From contig JAGWMU010000006.1 of assembly GCA_028873095.1 (NCBI GenBank), positions 1 through 39,708 of the forward strand: a DNA stretch of 39,708 nucleotides, read 5' to 3'. This stretch comes from Pseudomonadota bacterium (GTDB lineage: Bacteria > Pseudomonadota > Gammaproteobacteria > Xanthomonadales > Rhodanobacteraceae). The position numbers and the translations under genes were made by a program. The number at the start of each line of letters is the position of its first letter. Position 1 is the first letter of the stretch. Positions 1 to 36,852 of the stretch are shown one piece after another. The notes beneath the pieces are model-generated. The model did no database searches and was not told the DNA's origin. It saw nothing but the letters and a program-made list of their open reading frames with translations.

Positions 1-253
1 GATCGACCCGGGCGCGCCGGCCGACAAGGACCTGTACGACCTGCCGCCGGAAGAGGAGAAGAACATCCCGCAGGTCTGCTCCAGCCTCGACGCCGCGCTG
101 GAAGCGCTGGACAAGGATCGCGACTTCCTCAAGGCCGGCGGCGTGTTCACCGACGACTTCATCGACGCCTACATCGAAGTGAAGATGAAGGAAGTCACCC
201 GCTACCGGGCCAGCACCCATCCGCTGGAATTCCAGATGTACTACTCGATCTGA
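1..253 (+). CDS. glnA: Glutamine synthetase type I, C-terminal fragment (5' end outside window)
   Basis: Reading frame 1-253 gives [83 protein letters not shown], a characteristic GlnA C-terminus. Confidence 0.95.
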
Positions 254-502: not shown

Positions 503-1048
503 TCAGCCGTCGAACGGGACGGCGCCTGGCGACACCGGCGGCTGCGCATGCCCGGTGAGCTGCAGCAGGCCGCGCAGCAGCGCGGTCGGCGTCGGCGGAC
601 AGCCGTTGACCACGGCATCGACCGGGATGACGTCGGCGACGCGGCCGCGCGTCGCATAGTTCACCCCGAACACGCCGGTGCAGGTGCTGCAGTCGCCGAC
701 GGCCAGCACCCACTTGGGGTCGGGCATCGCCTCGTACGTGCGCCGGAGCGCCTCTTCCATGTTGACCGACACCGGCCCGGTGACCAGCAGGACATCGGCG
801 TGCCGCGGGCTGGCCACGAACGCGATGCCGCTGCCCTCGAGGTTGTAGTACGGGTTCGAAAGCGCGTGGATTTCCAGTTCGCAGCCGTTGCACGATCCGG
901 CATCCACGTGGCGGATGCGCAACGCGCGGCCGAACACGGACTGCAGCTCCCGCTGCAGTCCTTCCAGCGGCGCGTCGCGCAGCTCGGGGGTCGGCAAGGG
1001 TTCGCTGAGAATGCCGGTGCGCCGGATGCGTGCCAGGATGCTGAACAT
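503..1048 (-). CDS. hyfI: Hydrogenase-4 subunit I / NuoB-like small subunit
   Basis: Motifs SCNGCE, VGDCSTC and NGCPPTPTALLRGLLQL typical of the NuoB/HycG/HyfI family; last gene of the hyf-like operon. Confidence 0.88.
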   Translation of the reverse strand: MFSILARIRRTGILSEPLPTPELRDAPLEGLQRELQSVFGRALRIRHVDAGSCNGCELEIHALSNPYYNLEGSGIAFVASPRHADVLLVTGPVSVNMEEALRRTYEAMPDPKWVLAVGDCSTCTGVFGVNYATRGRVADVIPVDAVVNGCPPTPTALLRGLLQLTGHAQPPVSPGAVPFDG

Positions 1049-1054
1049 GGTGAC

Positions 1055-2599
1055 TTACCCGTCGTGACCGCTGTAGGCGAGGTTGAAAGACTTGTTGATC
1101 AGCGGGAAATCCGGAACGATGTTGCCGATGATGGCGTGCTCGATCAGCGGCCAGTTCTGCCACGACGGATCGTGCGCGTGGCAGTGCCGCACGCGGTTGT
1201 CCGGCGCCGTTTCCAGGGCGATCAACACCGGCCCGCGCCAGCCCTCGATCAGGCCCAGGCCGATTCGACCCGGCGGCGCCGCCGGCACCGGGACCAGGCC
1301 CGGCCCCTCCGGCAGGGTCTGCAGCAGCGACTGGCACAGCCGCAGGGAATCCATGATTTCATCGAAGCGAACCTGCACGCGCGCGGCGACGTCGCCTGCG
1401 GAACGCAGCACGCGGCCGGGTTGCAGTACATCGTAAGGCGGCCACGGCAGATCGATCCTCGCGTCGCGGGCGATGCCGGACGCGCGCCCGACCAGGCCGA
1501 TGGCGCCGTGTGCCCTGGCCAGTTCGGGACTGAGCAGGCCCGCATCGCGGAAGCGGTCCTGCATCCCGGCATGGTCGTCGAATATCGCGCGCAAGGCGGG
1601 CACGGCCTGTTCCAGCATCGCCGCTTCCTCGAGCATGCTGCGGATCATGCGCGCGCCGAGGTCGATGACGACGCCGCCGGGAAGCAGGTAGTCGAACAGG
1701 TAACGCTGGCCGAAGGCGTCGTGGTTGAGACGGACCAGTTGCTCCTTCAGGCGGGAGAACTGCACCAGGCCGAAAGCCAGGCCGGCATCGTTGCCGAGGC
1801 TGCCCAGGTCGCCCAGGTGATTGGCGATGCGCTCGCGCTCGAGCGCCAGCGCGCGCAGGGCCGCGGCGCGGCGCGGCAGTTCGGTTCCGGTGATCGCTTC
1901 CAGCGCGGCGCAGTAGGCCCAGGAAAACGCGACCGTGCTGTCGCCGCAGATCCGCGCCGCCAGCCGATGGCCCTCCTGCAAGGGCTGTCGGTCGAAGCGT
2001 TTGGCGATGCCCTTGTGCGCATAGCCAAGGCGCTCCTCCAACCGCAGCACTTTCTCGCCCACCACGGAAAAACGGAAATGGCCCGGTTCGATCGTCCCGG
2101 CGTGCACCGGGCCCACGGCGATTTCATGCACGCCGTCGCCGCTGACCGGCACGAACGGGTAGGGTTTGGCATGGATGGCATAATTCTGCGTGGCGCCCAC
2201 GTCGCGGCGCAGCGGAAAGATGCTCTCGGGCCAGCCGCCATGGCGCAGCCATGGCCGGCAATCTCCCGCGTCGGCCCGCAACCCGAGCAGGTCGTACATC
2301 GCGCGCTGCAGGCGCTCGGCCACCGGGAACAAGTGGCCGAGCGCGGGGTACACGGTGCTTCCGCCGGCCAGCGCGTGTTCCAGCACCACGACCCGGTCGG
2401 GCAACAGCAGCGCGGCGAACACGCGAAAGACGCCGTCGCGGTCGCGGTCGTCGGTGCCCCACAGGGTGAGCAGGCCGGCGCCCTGGTCGCGCAGACGCTG
2501 CGCGTCGGCCAGCCAGTGCGCGGCATCGACCGTCACCCGCCTTGCCGCCACGTTGGCGGGCAGGTGGAGGTCATTGGGCTCGGGCGAATTGTCGGTCAT
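1055..2599 (-). CDS. hyfG: Hydrogenase-4 large-subunit-like / NuoC-NuoD fusion (HyfG-like), lacking both NiFe CxxC motifs
   Basis: HFRFSVVGEKVLRLEERLGYAHKGIAKRF and RLAARICGDSTVAFSWAYC; C-terminus DFPLINKSFNLAYSGHDG. Position in the hyf operon. Confidence 0.88.
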   Translation of the reverse strand: MTDNSPEPNDLHLPANVAARRVTVDAAHWLADAQRLRDQGAGLLTLWGTDDRDRDGVFRVFAALLLPDRVVVLEHALAGGSTVYPALGHLFPVAERLQRAMYDLLGLRADAGDCRPWLRHGGWPESIFPLRRDVGATQNYAIHAKPYPFVPVSGDGVHEIAVGPVHAGTIEPGHFRFSVVGEKVLRLEERLGYAHKGIAKRFDRQPLQEGHRLAARICGDSTVAFSWAYCAALEAITGTELPRRAAALRALALERERIANHLGDLGSLGNDAGLAFGLVQFSRLKEQLVRLNHDAFGQRYLFDYLLPGGVVIDLGARMIRSMLEEAAMLEQAVPALRAIFDDHAGMQDRFRDAGLLSPELARAHGAIGLVGRASGIARDARIDLPWPPYDVLQPGRVLRSAGDVAARVQVRFDEIMDSLRLCQSLLQTLPEGPGLVPVPAAPPGRIGLGLIEGWRGPVLIALETAPDNRVRHCHAHDPSWQNWPLIEHAIIGNIVPDFPLINKSFNLAYSGHDG

Positions 2600-2611
2600 G
2601 TCGTCATCCCA

Positions 2612-4066
2612 TCAGCCGGCAATCAGCCGGGCCGCCAGGCGATACCACTCGGCCAGGGCCGGCGGAATGTAAACACCCATCATCAGCACGATCCCCAGAT
2701 GCACGAATACCGGAACCAGTGCCGGGGTGTGCGGCAGCGGCCGGTCGTCGGTGTCGCCGAACACCATCGGCTGCAGGCGGCTGAAGATTGCGGCGAAGGC
2801 GACCGCCAGGGCTGCCAGCAGGATCGGCGTGGCCCACGGATGATCCCGCATCGCCGTGATCAGCACGAGGTATTCGCTGGTGAAGACCCCGAACGGCGGC
2901 ATGCCGAGAATCGCCAGGCCGCCGAGCATCAGTCCCCAGCCCACGCTGGGATGAATCGCCAGCAGGCCGCGGATCTTGTCCATGCGCTGGGTGCCCGACA
3001 GCTGCGTGGCGTGACCGGCGGCAAAGAAGATCGCGGACTTCGTCAGCGAGTGCATCGTCATGTGCAGCAGCCCCGCGAAGTTGGCGATCGGGCCGCCCAT
3101 GCCGAACGCGAAGGTGATGATGCCCATGTGTTCGATCGAGGAATACGCGAACAGCCGCTTGATGTCGCGCTGGCGCCACAGGAAGAAGCTCGCCAGCACG
3201 GTCGACAGCAGGCCGAAACCCATCAGCATGTGGCCGGGCAGCGCCGAATGCAGCGCGCCGTCGGCGAGGATCTTGCAGCGGATCACCGCATACAGCGCGA
3301 CGTTGAGCAGCAGGCCGGACAGCACCGCCGACACCGGCGTCGGACCCTCGGCGTGCGCATCCGGCAGCCAGTTGTGCAGCGGCGCCAGGCCGACCTTGGT
3401 GCCGTAGCCGACCAGCAGGAAGACGAAGGCCAGGCCCATCACCCGCGGCTCCAGCTGGCCCTTGACCGCATTCAGATGCGTCCACAGCAGGGCGTTCATG
3501 CCCTCGCCCCCTAGCAGGTTCTCGGCGGCGGCGTACAGCAGCGCGGTGCCGAACAGCGCCAGCGCAATGCCCACGCCGCACAGGATGAAATATTTCCAGG
3601 CCGCCTCGACGCTGGCCCGCGTGCGGTACAGCGAAACCAGCAGCACCGTCGACAGCGTGGCCATTTCCATCGAGACCCACAGGAAGCCCATGTTGTTGGT
3701 GGTCAGCGCCAGCAGCATGGCGGCCATGAACAGCTGGTACATGCTGTGGTACAGCCGCAGCCGCGCCGGCGTGAGCCGCCCGTGTTCGGCTTCGATGCGC
3801 ATGTAGGGGCGCGAAAACACGGAAGTCGTGAAACCGACCAAGGCGGTCAGCGCGACCAGGAACACATTGAACGGATCGATGAAGAACTCTTCATGCAGGG
3901 CGGTCATCGAGCCGCCGTGGATGATCCTGAGCACCAGCGCCGCCGCCGCCAGCAAGGTGGCGAGGCTGATCGCCACGCTCGCTTCGGCGGCATACCGCTT
4001 CGCGCCGACGACGGCGAGCAGCATCGCGCCAAGCAGGGGACAGCCCAGCACCAGCAGAATCTCCAC
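2612..4066 (-). CDS. hyfF: Hydrogenase-4 subunit F / NuoN-M-L-type antiporter-like membrane subunit (GTG start)
   Basis: 484 aa; GTKVGLAPLHNWLPDAHAEGPTPVSAVLSG and KRLFAYSSIEHMGIITFAFG motifs of the NuoL/M/N family. Confidence 0.92.
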   Translation of the reverse strand: MEILLVLGCPLLGAMLLAVVGAKRYAAEASVAISLATLLAAAALVLRIIHGGSMTALHEEFFIDPFNVFLVALTALVGFTTSVFSRPYMRIEAEHGRLTPARLRLYHSMYQLFMAAMLLALTTNNMGFLWVSMEMATLSTVLLVSLYRTRASVEAAWKYFILCGVGIALALFGTALLYAAAENLLGGEGMNALLWTHLNAVKGQLEPRVMGLAFVFLLVGYGTKVGLAPLHNWLPDAHAEGPTPVSAVLSGLLLNVALYAVIRCKILADGALHSALPGHMLMGFGLLSTVLASFFLWRQRDIKRLFAYSSIEHMGIITFAFGMGGPIANFAGLLHMTMHSLTKSAIFFAAGHATQLSGTQRMDKIRGLLAIHPSVGWGLMLGGLAILGMPPFGVFTSEYLVLITAMRDHPWATPILLAALAVAFAAIFSRLQPMVFGDTDDRPLPHTPALVPVFVHLGIVLMMGVYIPPALAEWYRLAARLIAG

Positions 4067-4067
4067 G

Positions 4068-4733
4068 TCAATCCTCCTTGAGAGATTCGAGCTGGTCCAG
4101 ATCGAGGCTGTCGAACTGCTCCCGGATATGGAAAAAGAAGATGCCGAAGATGAACACGGCCACCAGCAGGTCCAGCGCCATGCCGAGCTCCACCACCATC
4201 GGCATGCCGTAGGTGGTGCTGGTGGCGGCGAAGAACAGGCCGTTCTCCAGCGACAGGAAACCGATCACCTGGGTAAACGCCTTGCGGCGGGCCAGTATCA
4301 TCAGGAACGACAGCAGGATGACCGCCAGCGCGATCCCCAGCGTATCGCGCAGCACGGTCGTGGCCAGCGCGCTGACCGGCTGCGCCAGCCCGAACGCGAA
4401 GATCACCAGGGCCAGGCCGACCAGCATCAGCGTCGGCAGATTGACCAGCGGCTCGTTGTCGCGTTCGATCCCCAGCTTGCGCATCAGGCGGAACAGGATC
4501 CACGGCAGCACGCACACCTTGAGCACCAGGGTAAGCGCGGCCGAATAGAACAGGTGCGTGAGGTGGGCCGTGGAGGCCACCAGCAGGGTCGAGGCCACCA
4601 GCACGGCGCCTTGCCACACCAGCAGGATCAGCAGCCGCCTGCTGCGCCGCTCGGCCAGCATGGCGAAGGAGATCAGCAGCAAGGCGCCGGCCAGCATCTG
4701 GATGACCTGAGTGGCGAGGCTCAAATGGGCCAT
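4068..4733 (-). CDS. hyfE: Hydrogenase-4 component E-like membrane protein
   Basis: MAHLSLATQVIQMLAGALLL...IGFLSLENGLFFAATSTTYGMPMVVELGMALDLLVAVFIFGIFFFHIREQFDSLDLDQLESLKED; HyfE-like. Start chosen inside the 237-aa ORF at 4733. Confidence 0.85.
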   Translation of the reverse strand: MAHLSLATQVIQMLAGALLLISFAMLAERRSRRLLILLVWQGAVLVASTLLVASTAHLTHLFYSAALTLVLKVCVLPWILFRLMRKLGIERDNEPLVNLPTLMLVGLALVIFAFGLAQPVSALATTVLRDTLGIALAVILLSFLMILARRKAFTQVIGFLSLENGLFFAATSTTYGMPMVVELGMALDLLVAVFIFGIFFFHIREQFDSLDLDQLESLKED

Positions 4734-4737
4734 GGCT

Positions 4738-5700
4738 TCATACCTCCAGCAGCAGGTGCACGAGCAGGCCGAGCACGGCAAGCAGGAACGCCATGGTCAG
4801 GAATTCCGGCGCACGGAACAGCCGCAGCTTGGCCGTGACGCTTTCGAGCAGCGCGAGCGCGGCGCCGGCGACGGCCAGCTTGGCGGCCAGGGCGCCGATC
4901 GCCAGCGCCAGCAGGCCGGGGCCGGCACCGTGCAGGGCGATGCCCCAGGGCATGAACAGCGTGAAACCGATGCAGGCGTAGTTGAACAGCTTCAGCCAGG
5001 CGGCCCACTCGATCAGCGCCAGATGACGCCCCGAATACTCCAGCGTCATCGACTCGTGGATCATCGTCAGTTCGAGATGGGTCGTCGGGTTGTCCACCGG
5101 CAGGCGTGCGTTTTCCGCCAGCAGCACCATCACGAAGGCGACCGCGGCGAAGAACAGGCTGGGGTGCAACATGATGTGCGGCTGCCGCAGCACGACCTCC
5201 ACCACGCGGGGCAACGCAGTGCTGCCGAACGCCAGGAAGGCGCTGAACAGCACCATCAGCAGGGCCGGCTCGGTGAGAAACCCGATCATCATCTCGCGGC
5301 GGGCGCCCATCGAGCCGAACGCGGTACCCACGTCCATCGCCGCGAGCGACATGAATACGCGCCCGGTGGCGAACACGCCCACCAGCGCGATCGCGTCGGC
5401 CACCCGGGCCAGCGGCAGCTCGGTGGTCACCGACGGAACGATCGCCGCGGCCACCACCATCGTGGCGAACACCGCATAGGGCGCGAGGCGGAACAGCCAG
5501 GAAGCATGGGTCGCCAGCGCCGCGTCCTTGTGGAACAGCTTGCGCAACACCCGGTAGGGTTGCCACAGCGGCGGCGCGGAGCGGTTCTGCAGCCAGGCCC
5601 GGCATTGCCCGACCCAGCCGGCGAACAGCGGCGCCAGCGCGATCGCCAGCAGGCACTCGCCCAGCTGCCATGCGTATGCCGTGGCGCTCACAGGACCCAT
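4738..5700 (-). CDS. hyfC: Hydrogenase-4 subunit C / NuoH-like membrane subunit
   Basis: MGPVSATAYAWQLGECLLAIALAPLFAGWVGQCRAWLQNR...AENARLPVDNPTTHLELTMIHESMTLEYSGRHLALIEWAAWLK; HycD/HyfC family. Overlaps the end of hyfB; start chosen inside the 799-aa ORF. Confidence 0.88.
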   Translation of the reverse strand: MGPVSATAYAWQLGECLLAIALAPLFAGWVGQCRAWLQNRSAPPLWQPYRVLRKLFHKDAALATHASWLFRLAPYAVFATMVVAAAIVPSVTTELPLARVADAIALVGVFATGRVFMSLAAMDVGTAFGSMGARREMMIGFLTEPALLMVLFSAFLAFGSTALPRVVEVVLRQPHIMLHPSLFFAAVAFVMVLLAENARLPVDNPTTHLELTMIHESMTLEYSGRHLALIEWAAWLKLFNYACIGFTLFMPWGIALHGAGPGLLALAIGALAAKLAVAGAALALLESVTAKLRLFRAPEFLTMAFLLAVLGLLVHLLLEV

Positions 5701-7700
5701 ACCAGCAGCAGGATCAGCGTCAGGAAGCTGTACAGCAGATAGGTCGCCAGCCGCCCGCCCTGCAGGATCGTCACCCGCTCGGCGGTACGCTGCACGAAGC
5801 GCGACAGCGGCAGGTAGAGCGCATGCCAGAAGTGCTCCTCGATCTGCACGCGGTACTGCGGTTGCGCATCGGACGGCGACGGCAGTTCGCGCTGCATGCG
5901 GAACACCGGCCCGAACAGATGGCGGATCGGCTGGCCGAAACCCTCGGCCGAATCCTGCATGCGCGGCGTCTGCCAGCGGTAGCCGCAATCCCATGCCGGT
6001 GTGCGGCGGACGCGGCCGTGGTAGAGCCGGCGCACCAGCACGAACGTGGCGGCGACCACGAGCACCAGCCCGGCCCACAGCCACAGGCCGCTGTACGACG
6101 CCTGGTTCGAGGCGAGCGGCGTCATCCACCAGGGCGCCGGCCCGCGCTGCACGGTTGCGCCGACCAGCTGCCCGGTGATGCGGCCCACCACATCCAGCGC
6201 GACCTGGGGAAACACGCCGACCAGCACGCAACCCAGCGCCAGCCAGCTGAGCCCGGCCCGTTCCAGCCAGCCCGCCGGCTGCGCCTGCTCCAGCGCGCGC
6301 TCGCGCGGCTGGCCGAGAAAGATCACGCCGTAGAACTTCACCATCACGTAGCCGGCCAGCGCCGCCGTCAGCGACACGATCGCCGCGCCCAGCGGCACGA
6401 TCATGTTCAGGAAGGCGTGCGGAATCTGCGGCGTCTGCAGGAACGCCTGCAGCAGCAGCCACTCCGAGACGAACCCGTTGAGCGGCGGCAAGCCGGCGAT
6501 GGCGAGGGAGCCGACCAGCGCCAGCGCCGCCACCCACGGCATGTAGCGGATCAATCCGCCGAGCCTGCCCAAACTGCGTTCGCCGGTCGCATGCATCACC
6601 GAGCCGGTGGCGAGAAACAGCAGGCTCTTGAACAACGCATGGTTGAACGAGTGGATCAGCGCCGCCGCCAGCGCCAGCGCCGCGAGCAGGCGCATGTCGA
6701 AACTGCGGCACAGCAGGGCCAGGCCGATGCCCGCAAAGACCAGCCCGAGATTCTCGATCGAGGAATACGCCAGCAGCCGCTTCATGTCGGTCTGCACGGC
6801 GGCGAAGATCGCGCCGTACATGGCCGTGCCCAGGCCCACGCCCAGGGTCAGCAGGCCCCACCACCAGGGGCCGGCATGCAGCAGATCCCAGCTGACCCGC
6901 AACATGCCGTAGACCGCCACCTTGAGCATCAGGCCGCTCATCATCGCCGATACCGGCGACGGCGCGGCGGGATGGGCTTCGGGCAGCCACACGTGCAGCG
7001 GCACCAGGCCGGCCTTGGCGCCGAAGCCGAACAGCGCCAGCACGAACGCCGCACTGGCCCAGGCCGGCGCCAGCGCCGCGCCGCGCATCGCATCGAAGGT
7101 CATCAGCCAGCTGCCGCCCTGCAGCACGCCGAAGCACAGCAGGATGCCCAGCGCACCGACGTGCGCCATCAGCAGGTACAGGAAGCCGGCGCGCCGGATT
7201 TCGGGAATGCGATGCTGGGTGACCACCAGGAAATACGAGCTCAGCGCCATGGTTTCCCAGGCCACCATGAACATGTAGGCGTCGTCGGCCAGGATCACCA
7301 GGGCCATGCTGGCCAGGAACAGGTGGTACTGCAGGCCCATCATCCCCGGCGCGGTGCCCTCGCCCGCCCGGAAATAGCCGGCGGCGAAGATCGAAATGCC
7401 GGCACCGGCGCTGCCCAGCAGCAGCAGGAAAAACCCGGACAGCGCATCGAGCCGTACGTGGAAGGGCAGGCTCGGCAGTCCGAGCGGAAGCACGGCGGTC
7501 TGCGCGGTGAAGTTCGCCGTCAGCGCAACCGCGCCCGCGCCGGCCACGCCCAGTGCGATCAGCGCGCCCACCGGAAACAGGGTGCGGGCGACCCAGCGGA
7601 TGCTGTTCGGACGCGCCAGACCGAGCGCGCCCAACACCAGCCAGGCGGCGATCAAGCCGAGCGATGCGGTCAGCGCGGTAGTCGATGCGATCCCGTTCAC
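5688..7700 (-). CDS. hyfB: Hydrogenase-4 subunit B / NuoL-type membrane subunit
   Basis: 670 aa, multiple TM segments; GFGAKAGLVPLHVWLPEAHPAAPSPVSAMMSGLMLKVAVYG and KRLLAYSSIENLGLVFAGIG. Confidence 0.92.
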   Translation of the reverse strand: MNGIASTTALTASLGLIAAWLVLGALGLARPNSIRWVARTLFPVGALIALGVAGAGAVALTANFTAQTAVLPLGLPSLPFHVRLDALSGFFLLLLGSAGAGISIFAAGYFRAGEGTAPGMMGLQYHLFLASMALVILADDAYMFMVAWETMALSSYFLVVTQHRIPEIRRAGFLYLLMAHVGALGILLCFGVLQGGSWLMTFDAMRGAALAPAWASAAFVLALFGFGAKAGLVPLHVWLPEAHPAAPSPVSAMMSGLMLKVAVYGMLRVSWDLLHAGPWWWGLLTLGVGLGTAMYGAIFAAVQTDMKRLLAYSSIENLGLVFAGIGLALLCRSFDMRLLAALALAAALIHSFNHALFKSLLFLATGSVMHATGERSLGRLGGLIRYMPWVAALALVGSLAIAGLPPLNGFVSEWLLLQAFLQTPQIPHAFLNMIVPLGAAIVSLTAALAGYVMVKFYGVIFLGQPRERALEQAQPAGWLERAGLSWLALGCVLVGVFPQVALDVVGRITGQLVGATVQRGPAPWWMTPLASNQASYSGLWLWAGLVLVVAATFVLVRRLYHGRVRRTPAWDCGYRWQTPRMQDSAEGFGQPIRHLFGPVFRMQRELPSPSDAQPQYRVQIEEHFWHALYLPLSRFVQRTAERVTILQGGRLATYLLYSFLTLILLLVWVL

Positions 7701-7754
7701 ACCTTTCGTATCCCTGGGATGCCGCGGGCCGGAACCCGCGTTCGTGCGAATTTC

Positions 7755-7773
7755 ATGATAACCGTATTATCAT
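7755..7773. promoter_or_regulatory. Palindromic candidate operator between hyfB and the RHH gene
   Basis: ATGATAA-CCGTA-TTATCAT, perfect 7-bp arms, in the divergent intergenic region (hyfB start 7700, RHH start 7812). Confidence 0.5.
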
Positions 7774-7811
7774 TGAACTTGCCCTGAAAAGGTAAGACCG
7801 AAACTACGCGC

Positions 7812-8039
7812 ATGCCCGTCGAGAACCGCACCGCCCGCCTGACCGTCCTGATCGACCCGCGTAAGAAAGCGGTGCTCGAACGCCTGTGCGCGGAGGAGGA
7901 CGCCACGCCCTCGCAGGTCGTGCGCCGGTTGATCCGCGAATACATCGAGCGCAAGTCCGGTCGTCCCTGGCATGCCGGGGACGAACCCGCCCCTGCAGCG
8001 GCATCCCGGGTCAGGCACAGCCATGTCCGCGCACGATAA
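7812..8039 (+). CDS. Ribbon-helix-helix (CopG/Arc-type) protein
   Basis: 75 aa; TARLTVLIDPRKKAVLERLCAEEDATPSQVVRRLIREYIERK is a typical RHH fold pattern. Confidence 0.75.
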   Translation: MPVENRTARLTVLIDPRKKAVLERLCAEEDATPSQVVRRLIREYIERKSGRPWHAGDEPAPAAASRVRHSHVRAR

Positions 8040-34576: not shown

Positions 34577-35191
34577 ATGTCCACAGCCGTGCCGCACCCG
34601 TTGTTGTCGGTCGCTCCGGCCCGATTGCGGCCGACCCAGCTCAGCGTGGGCAAGGCCGAGGTCGCGGCCAAGCGCGCGCAATGGGAGAAGCTCGGCCGCA
34701 AGAAGCGCAAGGCGCTGCTCGGATCGCACTGCTTTCCCGCGGTGCTGGGCCCGGGGCAGCATGTCTACATCGTCGATCACCATCACCTCGGCCTGGCGCT
34801 GCTGGAAGAGGGCGTGGAAAGCGTGGCGGCGATCATCCAGCGCGACTTCTCCTGGCTGGAGCCGGCGGTGTTCTGGCGCACGATGGAGTTCAACCGCTGG
34901 GCGCATCCGTATGACCAGCACGGCAACCGCGCCGATTACGACGCGATGCCGACCCGGCTGGCGGACCTGCGCGACGATCCCTACCGCACGCTGGCCGCGC
35001 GGGTGCGCGAGGCCGGCGGCTGCGCGAAGGACGCCGCCCCGTACGCCGAGTTCCTGTGGGCGGATTTCTACCGGCCCCGGCTAAAGCTGCGCCGCGGAAA
35101 GGTGGATGCCGGGGTGGTGCAGCAGGCATTGCTGCTCGCGCACGGCCACGAGGCGGCCTATCTGCCGGGCTGGAGCGGGGCGCCCGGATGA
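34577..35191 (+). CDS. ParB-like nuclease-domain protein (ParBc_2 type)
   Basis: LRPTQLSVGKAEVAAKRAQWEKLGRKKRKALLGSHCFPAVLGPGQHVYIVDHHHLGLALLEEGVESV. Confidence 0.8.
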   Translation: MSTAVPHPLLSVAPARLRPTQLSVGKAEVAAKRAQWEKLGRKKRKALLGSHCFPAVLGPGQHVYIVDHHHLGLALLEEGVESVAAIIQRDFSWLEPAVFWRTMEFNRWAHPYDQHGNRADYDAMPTRLADLRDDPYRTLAARVREAGGCAKDAAPYAEFLWADFYRPRLKLRRGKVDAGVVQQALLLAHGHEAAYLPGWSGAPG

Positions 35192-36852
35192 ACGCCGGCC
35201 CGGCACCCGCCGCCGCGCCGGCATCGACCCTCGCCGTCGATGCGGTGGCAGGGCTGTCCATCGCCGGCCTGCTGCTGCCCGAGGCGGTGGCTTACTCGGG
35301 CATTGCCGGGCTGCCGCCGCAGGCCGGGGTGATCGGCTTGCTGGCCGGCCTGGTCTGCTACGGGCTGCTCGGCCGCAGCCGCTACGCGATCGTCTCGGCC
35401 ACCTCGTCCTCGGCGGCGGTGCTGGCCGCCGGCACGCTGGCACTGGCCGGGCCGGAAGGCGTCACGCGCACCGCGGTGGCGGCCACCCTGGTGCTGCTCA
35501 CCGGCGCCTGTTTCCTGATCGCCGGCATCGCGCGGCTGGGCGGCCTGTCGCAGATGATCGCACGGCCGGTGCTGCGCGGCTTCACCTTCGGCCTCGCCGG
35601 CGTGATCGCGGTGAAGCAGCTGCCGCACCTGCTCGGCTTGCCTGCCCTGAGCGGCGATTTCGTGCCGCTGCAGCTGGCGCACGTGCTGGCCTCGCTCGAC
35701 CGGATCGAGCCGTTCACGACGGTCGCCGGGCTGCTCACCCTGCTGCTGCTGTTCGCCGGCGAGCGGATGCGTTACCTGCCGGGAAGCCTGCTGGCGATCG
35801 TGCTGGGGATCGCGGCGTCCGGCTGGCTGCAGCCGCACGGCGTGCGCCTGACCGGCACGATCGACCTCGCGCTGGCGCAGGTGTTGCCGGCCTGGCCGTC
35901 CAGCGGGCAGTGGCTGCCCAGCGTCGAGCTGGCCGCCGCGCTGCTGTTGGTCCTGTATGCGGAGTCGTACGGCGCGATCCGCGCGTTCGCGCTGAAACAC
36001 GGCGACCCGGTCGACGCGAACCGCGACCTGCTGGTGCTCGGCATCGCCAACATGGTGTCCGGATTGCTGCACGGCATGCCGGTCGGCGCCGGCTACTCGG
36101 GCACCTCGGCGAACGAGGCCGCCGGCGCCCGTTCGCGGCTGGCCGGGCTGATCGCGGCGGCGGTCCTGTTGCTGCTGGTGTGGCTGCTGCTGCGCTGGAT
36201 CGAGCGCATACCCGTGCCGGTGCTGGCGGCGATCGTGATACACGCGGTGAGCAAGTCCTGGCGGCTGTCGGCGTTCCGGCCGTACCTGGCATGGCGGCGC
36301 GACCGGCTGGTGGCGCTGGCCGCGGTGCTCGCGGTGCTGGTGCTGGGCATCCTCAACGGCCTGCTGGCGGCGATCGCCTTCAGTCTGGTGATGCTGCTGC
36401 GCCAGCTCGCCATGCCGCGCATCAGCGTGCTCGGTCGGCTTGGCGACAGCCACGACTTCGTCAGCATCGAGCAGCACCCGCAGGCGGTGGAGCCGCAGGG
36501 CGTGCTGATCCTGCGGCCGGAACAGCCGCTGTTCTTCGCCAATGCGGAATCGGTGATGGCGCTGGCGCGCCAGCGGGTCGAGGCGCATCCGCGACGGCAG
36601 ACGCTGGTGCTCAGCCTGGAGGAGTCGGCGGATCTGGACAGCACCGCGCTGGAGGCGCTGGCCGACTTTGCCGCGTGGCTGGGCGCTCGTGACATCACGC
36701 TGCGTGTGGCACGATTGAAGGATGTCGTGCGCCAGTTGCTGGAACGCGCGGCCTTGCCCCAGCTGCCGGCATCGGCGCTGGATTTCTGGAGCGTGGAGGA
36801 CGCCGCCAGTGCGTCCGCGGCGACTCCGTCGACAAGAGGATCCGGGCAGTGA
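35188..36852 (+). CDS. SulP family anion transporter with C-terminal STAS domain
   Basis: AGLSIAGLLLPEAVAYSGIAGLPPQAGVIGLLAGLVCYGLLGRSRYAIVSATSSSAAVLAAGTLAL; STAS-like C-terminus LVLSLEESADLDSTALEALADFAAWLGARDITLRVARLKD. Confidence 0.92.
   Translation: MNAGPAPAAAPASTLAVDAVAGLSIAGLLLPEAVAYSGIAGLPPQAGVIGLLAGLVCYGLLGRSRYAIVSATSSSAAVLAAGTLALAGPEGVTRTAVAATLVLLTGACFLIAGIARLGGLSQMIARPVLRGFTFGLAGVIAVKQLPHLLGLPALSGDFVPLQLAHVLASLDRIEPFTTVAGLLTLLLLFAGERMRYLPGSLLAIVLGIAASGWLQPHGVRLTGTIDLALAQVLPAWPSSGQWLPSVELAAALLLVLYAESYGAIRAFALKHGDPVDANRDLLVLGIANMVSGLLHGMPVGAGYSGTSANEAAGARSRLAGLIAAAVLLLLVWLLLRWIERIPVPVLAAIVIHAVSKSWRLSAFRPYLAWRRDRLVALAAVLAVLVLGILNGLLAAIAFSLVMLLRQLAMPRISVLGRLGDSHDFVSIEQHPQAVEPQGVLILRPEQPLFFANAESVMALARQRVEAHPRRQTLVLSLEESADLDSTALEALADFAAWLGARDITLRVARLKDVVRQLLERAALPQLPASALDFWSVEDAASASAATPSTRGSGQ

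Follow-up and report, generated by a model that had tools for sequence, protein, structure and literature searches.

Does an operon that is arranged like hydrogenase 4, but whose large subunit appears to lack the nickel ligands, encode a hydrogenase at all? The operon in question, hyfB-C-E-F-G-I, is found in the draft genome of a soil-dwelling Rhodanobacter (2.88 Mb, 82% complete), where its six intact genes run on the minus strand from position 7700 down to 503 of contig C43, the 39.7 kb stretch of DNA that was analysed as a whole and is called the window here. An initial annotation had placed a hydrogenase-4-like hyfBCEFGI operon at 503-7700 and preferred an energy-converting hydrogenase-related (Ehr) complex to a hydrogenase. 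The operon is borne out by the profile matches of its gene families, by its strand and by its tight packing, with adjacent genes either overlapping or separated by 1-12 bases and all six reading frames open. The Ehr-type reading is supported by every sequence-readable feature that distinguishes Ehr from group 4 [NiFe] hydrogenases and complex I, and we consider it nearly certain that the operon encodes an Ehr complex (ehrABCDLS). We base this on the loss of the nickel ligands in a conserved, remodelled form, the near absence of HypD from the genus and the lack of HyfA and HyfH, as well as on the single N2-like cluster motif, the intact membrane arm and the placement in a separate, supported clade.

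The central evidence comes from the large subunit HyfG (1055-2599, minus strand), an EhrL-like fusion of NuoC- and NuoD-type parts (PF00329 and PF00346). Its RICGDS at residues 216-221 aligns to RVCGICG of HycE and HyfG of E. coli, and its FPLINKSFNLAYSGHDG at 498-514 aligns to APLIIGSLDPCYSCTDR of the same two proteins. In these columns CGDS stands against the CGIC of E. coli HycE, HyfG and similar hydrogenases, and NLAYSG against their DPCYSC. The loss of nickel ligands that had been claimed for HyfG holds for three of the four cysteines; the claim needs refinement for the first proximal one, C218, which is still present. C218 is nevertheless no conserved ligand, since about 110 relatives carry serine (79), cysteine (28) or alanine (8) at this position, and the second proximal place, 221, is serine or threonine in these relatives. 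The C-terminus falls at the point where HycE continues into its cleaved maturation tail, and HyfG has no such tail. The residues that stand at the former metal site are themselves conserved: D220 is found in 112 of 118 relatives and N502, K503 and S504 in 110-114 of them, a set in which a few NuoD and other paralogous sequences are also counted, and in a curated set of 70 sequences D220, N502, K503, S504, H166, E171 and Y509 are all invariant. The same replacement motif is found across Pseudomonadota, Nitrospirota and Acidobacteriota.

The maturation genes point in the same direction. The initial annotation had noted that the window has no hyp genes, and beyond the window this holds for HypD, which has no match in the 82% complete genome itself, the other hyp genes not having been searched. 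HypD is absent from 44 of 45 Rhodanobacter genomes, single-contig assemblies among them, and the sole match is in a fragmented bin (G011). The operon is carried by 18 of the 45, and 17 of these 18 lack HypD. In a wider sample of 399 Pseudomonadota species, an Ehr-type HyfG was found in 63 (62 at 478 bits or more, one further match being a fragment), or about 15%, and a hydrogenase-type HyfG in 10 (316-342 bits). HypD is present in all 10 hydrogenase-type genomes but in only 23 of the 63 Ehr-carrying genomes, being absent from 40; those that have it presumably contain other hydrogenases. The absence of HypD together with the GDS and NKS motifs serves as a simple filter for Ehr. That the operon encodes a functional [NiFe] hydrogenase with an unusual ligand set is highly implausible in light of these results. 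This reading could appeal to C218 and to the HycE-like fold, yet the three remaining ligand cysteines are missing from close relatives as well, the place of C218 is taken by serine or alanine in most of them, and both the HypD protein (in 17 of the 18 Rhodanobacter genomes) and the maturation tail are lacking.

The accessory subunits are also missing. None of HyfA, HyfD, HyfH, HyfJ, HyfR or FocB is encoded in the operon, so that the lack of HyfA and HyfH noticed earlier extends to two more proteins of E. coli hydrogenase 4, its third antiporter-like subunit (HyfD) and HyfJ, which is accessory. Clustering of the flanking genes likewise gave no HyfA or HyfH, HyfA not being searched genome-wide. 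A search for HyfH returned one gene per related genome, which we assign to NuoI because, in the genomes that allowed both to be placed, it and nuoD are a few kb apart. In the genome studied here a nuoI-like gene is present and a nuoD match is missing; we put the latter down to the incomplete bin, as all the relatives searched have a match and the nuoI-like gene is there. Compared with E. coli hydrogenase 4 (hyfABCDEFGHIJR-focB) and hydrogenase 3/formate hydrogenlyase (hyc), the operon shares the order of the six hyf genes, the CxxC of the small subunit, the glutamate E171 and the fold of the large subunit (HycE). It differs in having no nickel ligand set, none of the six genes named above, no C-terminal maturation tail and no HypD in the genome.

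If the hydrogen site is gone, is the rest of the complex still maintained? HyfI (503-1048, minus strand, PF01058) is the EhrS-like small subunit, and its single [4Fe-4S] motif is of the N2 type. No fewer than 112 of 114 relatives keep its C53, C56, C120 and C150, which bears out the intact cysteines that had been reported for it. The cluster cysteines have the spacing of hydrogenases, CxxC (CNGC), unlike the CC of complex I, a distinction taken from PMC7684303, and the closest structure in the PDB is MbhJ (6cfw_J). In the membrane arm, HyfB (5688-7700, minus strand, GTG start, 670 aa, EhrA-like) is a NuoL-type antiporter subunit (NF005086, 869 bits; PF00361) whose channel residues E149, K229, K358 and E413 are invariant in 65 of 65 sequences, and the second antiporter-like subunit HyfF (2612-4066, minus strand, GTG start; NF005045, 835 bits) has E134, K224, K343 and E398 invariant in 100 of 100. 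The NuoH-like anchor HyfC (4738-5700, minus strand; PF00146, E=1.7e-30), whose gene overlaps the end of hyfB, carries an AENARLPVDNP...LEYSG stretch in which the charged residues are nearly invariant (n=67); an open reading frame (ORF) listed at 4721-5671 was rejected as a shadow frame. The small membrane subunit HyfE (4068-4733, minus strand) scores 95 bits against NF008556, under the cut-off of 136, and its gene is syntenic in relatives. The ratio of nonsynonymous to synonymous substitution rates (dN/dS) within the genus is 0.07-0.37, indicating purifying selection. Because the HyfI cysteines and the channel residues are kept and dN/dS is low, the sequences indicate that selection still acts on the parts that carry electrons and move ions, while the site for hydrogen has been lost. 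There is next to no chance that what we see is a hydrogenase operon in decay. It has indeed lost metal ligands and accessory genes, but open frames, the dN/dS values, the same replacement motif in three phyla and a conserved, dedicated promoter region refute decay.

Ehr complexes have two antiporter-like subunits and one each of the NuoH-like, HyfE-like, large and small kinds, which is the set encoded here, and the six-gene synteny is kept in most relative loci that have enough flank. Coppi 2005 and Marreiros 2013 are said to be the founding Ehr papers, the family reportedly having been named in 2005-2013. The genes are named ehrABCDLS (PMC6688271), Geobacter proteins bear the Ehr name (PMC8691401), and the same six-gene set is known from Geobacter, Nitrospira, Methylacidiphilum and others (PMC8691401, PMC12342949, PMC6688271, PMC6349859). 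The complex has been described as having no Ni-Fe residues and an unknown function (PMC6349859, PMC10284858, PMC12342949), the function still being termed unknown in 2025 (PMC12342949). The window operon is a further member of this widespread and already named family. It is like the Ehr of Geobacter (GSU0739-0745), Nitrospira and Methylacidiphilum in its HyfE- and NuoL-like parts, its large subunit without nickel ligands, its small subunit and its six kinds of subunit, and no excluding difference was found, although the named Geobacter and Nitrospira proteins were not themselves aligned. In our tree, which does not include these named proteins, a supported branch (99/94) separates the Ehr sequences from hydrogenases and NuoD, and the Ehr clade takes in Nitrospirota and Acidobacteriota; some branches are long and the deep joins are unsure. 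Given its frequency, Ehr is a common respiratory-type complex. Annotation pipelines label its genes as hydrogenase 4 or formate hydrogenlyase, which carries a risk of false claims of H2 metabolism.

Several other large subunits deserve separate mention. Those of two Acidobacteriaceae bins (L034 and L035) adjoin Rhodanobacter (100/96), which suggests either a transfer between the two groups or misbinned contigs. Two Rhodanobacteraceae loci (L131, 9332-10600; L135, 9827-11092) have a second large subunit that resembles those of hydrogenases but is divergent. It too lacks nickel ligands, shows the motifs SGIGS or SGVGS and ASFGL-IAGCD and has its own HyfC/E/F/I-like genes alongside; one Rhodanobacter genome (G010) carries both this type and Ehr. 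Relatives in L028 and L029, of the same order, have CVPD and DACPPEVDR and sit on long branches grouping with NuoD; they are a further type in which the ligands are partly lost.

What could the emptied site do? By sequence, the best PDB match of HyfG is HycE (7z0s_E, 1.4e-55). Structure prediction covered this one chain, and the AlphaFold2 model (predicted local distance difference test, pLDDT, of 92) again gave HycE (7z0s_E) as the best fold match, with a template modelling (TM) score of 0.94. The beta1-beta2 loop (166-170) is the sole internal stretch with pLDDT below 50. Next to it, E171 aligns to E21 of MbhL, named as a key residue in proton reduction (PMC7684303). This proton-relay glutamate is retained in HyfG and has no counterpart in complex I or in the Pyrococcus membrane-bound sulfane sulfur reductase (MBS), a point we did not find in the Ehr literature examined. 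With complex I (NuoB/CD/H/L/M/N) the Ehr complex shares the NuoC-NuoD fusion, as in E. coli, the E-channel and antiporter residues, the loss of nickel ligands and D271, which aligns to D139 of Nqo4. It differs in having no NADH module and a small-subunit CxxC rather than CC, and in the alignment Y87 and H38 of Nqo4 correspond to G219 and I170 of HyfG, so that equivalents of these two residues are absent.

MBS, too, belongs to the complex I superfamily and has lost the hydrogenase site and the quinone residues, and it suggests a reductase in which the N2-type cluster would itself reduce some small molecule (a polysulfide, a disulfide or another) within the vacated pocket, the reaction driving an ion pump. 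Such a mechanism is described for MBS (PMC7684303), a relative of group 4 hydrogenases that has lost the nickel ligands. MbsL turns up among the relatives of HyfG both by sequence and by fold, and neither protein has equivalents of Y87 and H38; a C-terminal fragment search aimed at the MbsL sequence brought up HycE alone. MBS has, however, features of its own, namely an extra Fe-S subunit (MbsN), Mrp-type subunits, two retained Ni-site cysteines, a proximal cluster held by three cysteines and no E21 equivalent (PMC7684303). It needs the shortened small-subunit motif with its three-cysteine coordination, whereas HyfI keeps the full CxxC and four conserved cysteines, though a sequence by itself does not show how the cluster is coordinated. 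The glutamate that is missing in MBS is invariant here, and neither an MbsN-like gene in the operon nor linked sulfur-reduction genes were seen. We find an MBS-like reductase quite improbable.

The explanation we prefer, to which as a whole we give a probability of about 0.5, is a redox-driven ion pump: electrons from a soluble donor would reach an acceptor in the vacant pocket by way of the one [4Fe-4S] cluster. Because the analysis gave no adaptor of the HyfA/HyfH type, this donor, a low-potential one, would dock directly at HyfI, and the electron would cross the single cluster to an acceptor sitting at the former Ni-Fe place, where E171 would supply protons. Movement of the flexible beta1-beta2 loop could then be relayed via HyfC to HyfF and HyfB, which would move H+ or Na+ across the membrane. 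That the Ehr complex is a redox-driven ion pump of some kind is probable. The leading candidate for the acceptor is the membrane quinone, reached through a HyfC/HyfG/HyfI chamber, but this is a more tentative proposal. Three points weigh against the scheme. The residues of complex I that hold the quinone headgroup (Nqo4 Y87 and H38) are not kept in HyfG; HyfG was modelled as a single chain, so the chamber rests on homology; and neighbour clustering in about 80 loci gave no linked donor gene, that is, no ferredoxin, formate dehydrogenase or similar. The neighbours that did appear are lineage-specific (spermidine-synthase-like, MetG, SulP, helix-turn-helix (HTH) and DUF4365 genes).

The lack of a donor module and the intact antiporter channels would also fit an Mrp-like antiporter of ions or protons that does no redox work and serves pH or ion homeostasis, its peripheral arm being structural or sensory. 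A role in pH homeostasis has been proposed for the Ehr of Methylacidiphilum (PMC6688271), and hyfBCEF of an acid-tolerant Nitrospira were reported to be upregulated at low pH (PMC13109103). The cluster cysteines of HyfI and the pocket of HyfG are, however, strongly constrained across phyla, which would be needless in a redox-free arm, and we judge this explanation rather improbable. The same complex might instead run mainly backward, with quinol and the proton-motive force pushing electrons uphill to a carrier of low potential, for instance ferredoxin, that feeds biosynthesis or reverse electron flow. Many relatives come from chemolithoautotrophic groups that need reverse electron flow (Gallionella, Thiobacillus, Thiomonas, Nitrospirae), and a NuoD-like gene of complex I is present in the related genomes too; many other hosts are plain heterotrophs (Paraburkholderia, rhizobia), and the association with the ferredoxin oxidoreductase marker POR in the genus is weak (6/18 Ehr-carrying against 2/27 other Rhodanobacter genomes, p=0.04, the genomes being related). 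This leaves a mainly backward mode unlikely. A link with POR was set aside as weak. A link to nitrate respiration was rejected as well: narG is found in 9/18 Ehr-carrying against 2/27 other Rhodanobacter genomes (p=0.003), but we do not take this as general because the odds ratio in the phylum sample is 1.04, and shared ancestry could explain the excess in the genus. In the papers examined on Burkholderia at low oxygen the operon was not found to be mentioned, and a Cupriavidus fitness paper has no Ehr data.

How the redox-driven pump we prefer would be controlled is suggested by the region upstream of hyfB. A candidate sigma-70 promoter is predicted at 7766-7795 on the minus strand (-10 GATAAT at 7766-7771, -35 TTACCT at 7790-7795, spacing 18), a layout repeated in 14 loci with spacings of 16-18. 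Across the -10 box lies the palindrome ATGATAACCGTATTATCAT (7755-7773), a candidate operator with none expected in shuffled sequence. Among Rhodanobacter genomes, 14 of the 18 with Ehr contain ATGATAATnnnnTTATCAT, each at a single place that is always upstream of hyfB, and 0 of the 27 without Ehr contain it; in a relative outside the genus both arms have changed in step (ATGTTAATCCAATTAACAT). Divergent from the operon is a gene for a ribbon-helix-helix regulator of 75 aa (RHH_9, 7812-8039, plus strand; PF19839, E=5.5e-22), present in 16/18 against 0/27 of these genomes. The gene and the palindrome were seen as a unit at 7755-8039 of the window and in loci L146-L159. From position and co-occurrence only, we infer that RHH_9 may bind the palindrome, and the pair looks like a dedicated one-target regulatory unit. 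We describe this candidate unit only from Rhodanobacter and a single near relative, and it is new with respect to the Ehr literature examined. With the conserved pocket residues and a candidate regulator that has a single operator in Rhodanobacter, the donor, the acceptor and the inducing condition come within experimental reach. A bolder proposal is that within the complex I superfamily Ehr makes up a catalytic class of its own, its Ni-Fe cavity rebuilt as a proton-coupled site (E171, D220-S221, N502-K503-S504) with an acceptor unlike that of hydrogenase, complex I or MBS and, in Rhodanobacter, with the RHH_9 one-target switch; we regard this as speculative and unlikely.

Between the palindrome and hyfB there is a leader ORF of 19 aa (7697-7756, minus strand), which starts at the palindrome end and finishes with a stop codon overlapping the start codon of hyfB. 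The arrangement is found in 15 of 15 related loci while the length varies from 19 to 28 aa, and this constancy despite variable length suggests translational coupling of the leader to hyfB. In two of the 15 the codon overlapping the leader stop is GTA, and hyfB must therefore start elsewhere there. FNR-type boxes upstream of hyfB were considered and rejected: the 6 that were found compare with 3.1 expected, and the window has none. In three loci on rhizobial plasmids (L112, L113, L117) a small Cro/C1-type HTH gene leads the Ehr operon, abutting or overlapping hyfB, and appears to be a different regulator in another lineage; in L112 and L113 a DUF4365 gene follows the operon.

At the downstream edge of the window operon lies the 3' end of a convergent gene (1-253, plus strand), which we take from its sequence to be a glutamine synthetase gene. 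Far from the operon, and too distant for linkage, the ORF at 35056-36849 has about 30% identity to the SulP-type transporters that adjoin Ehr operons in some Betaproteobacteria.

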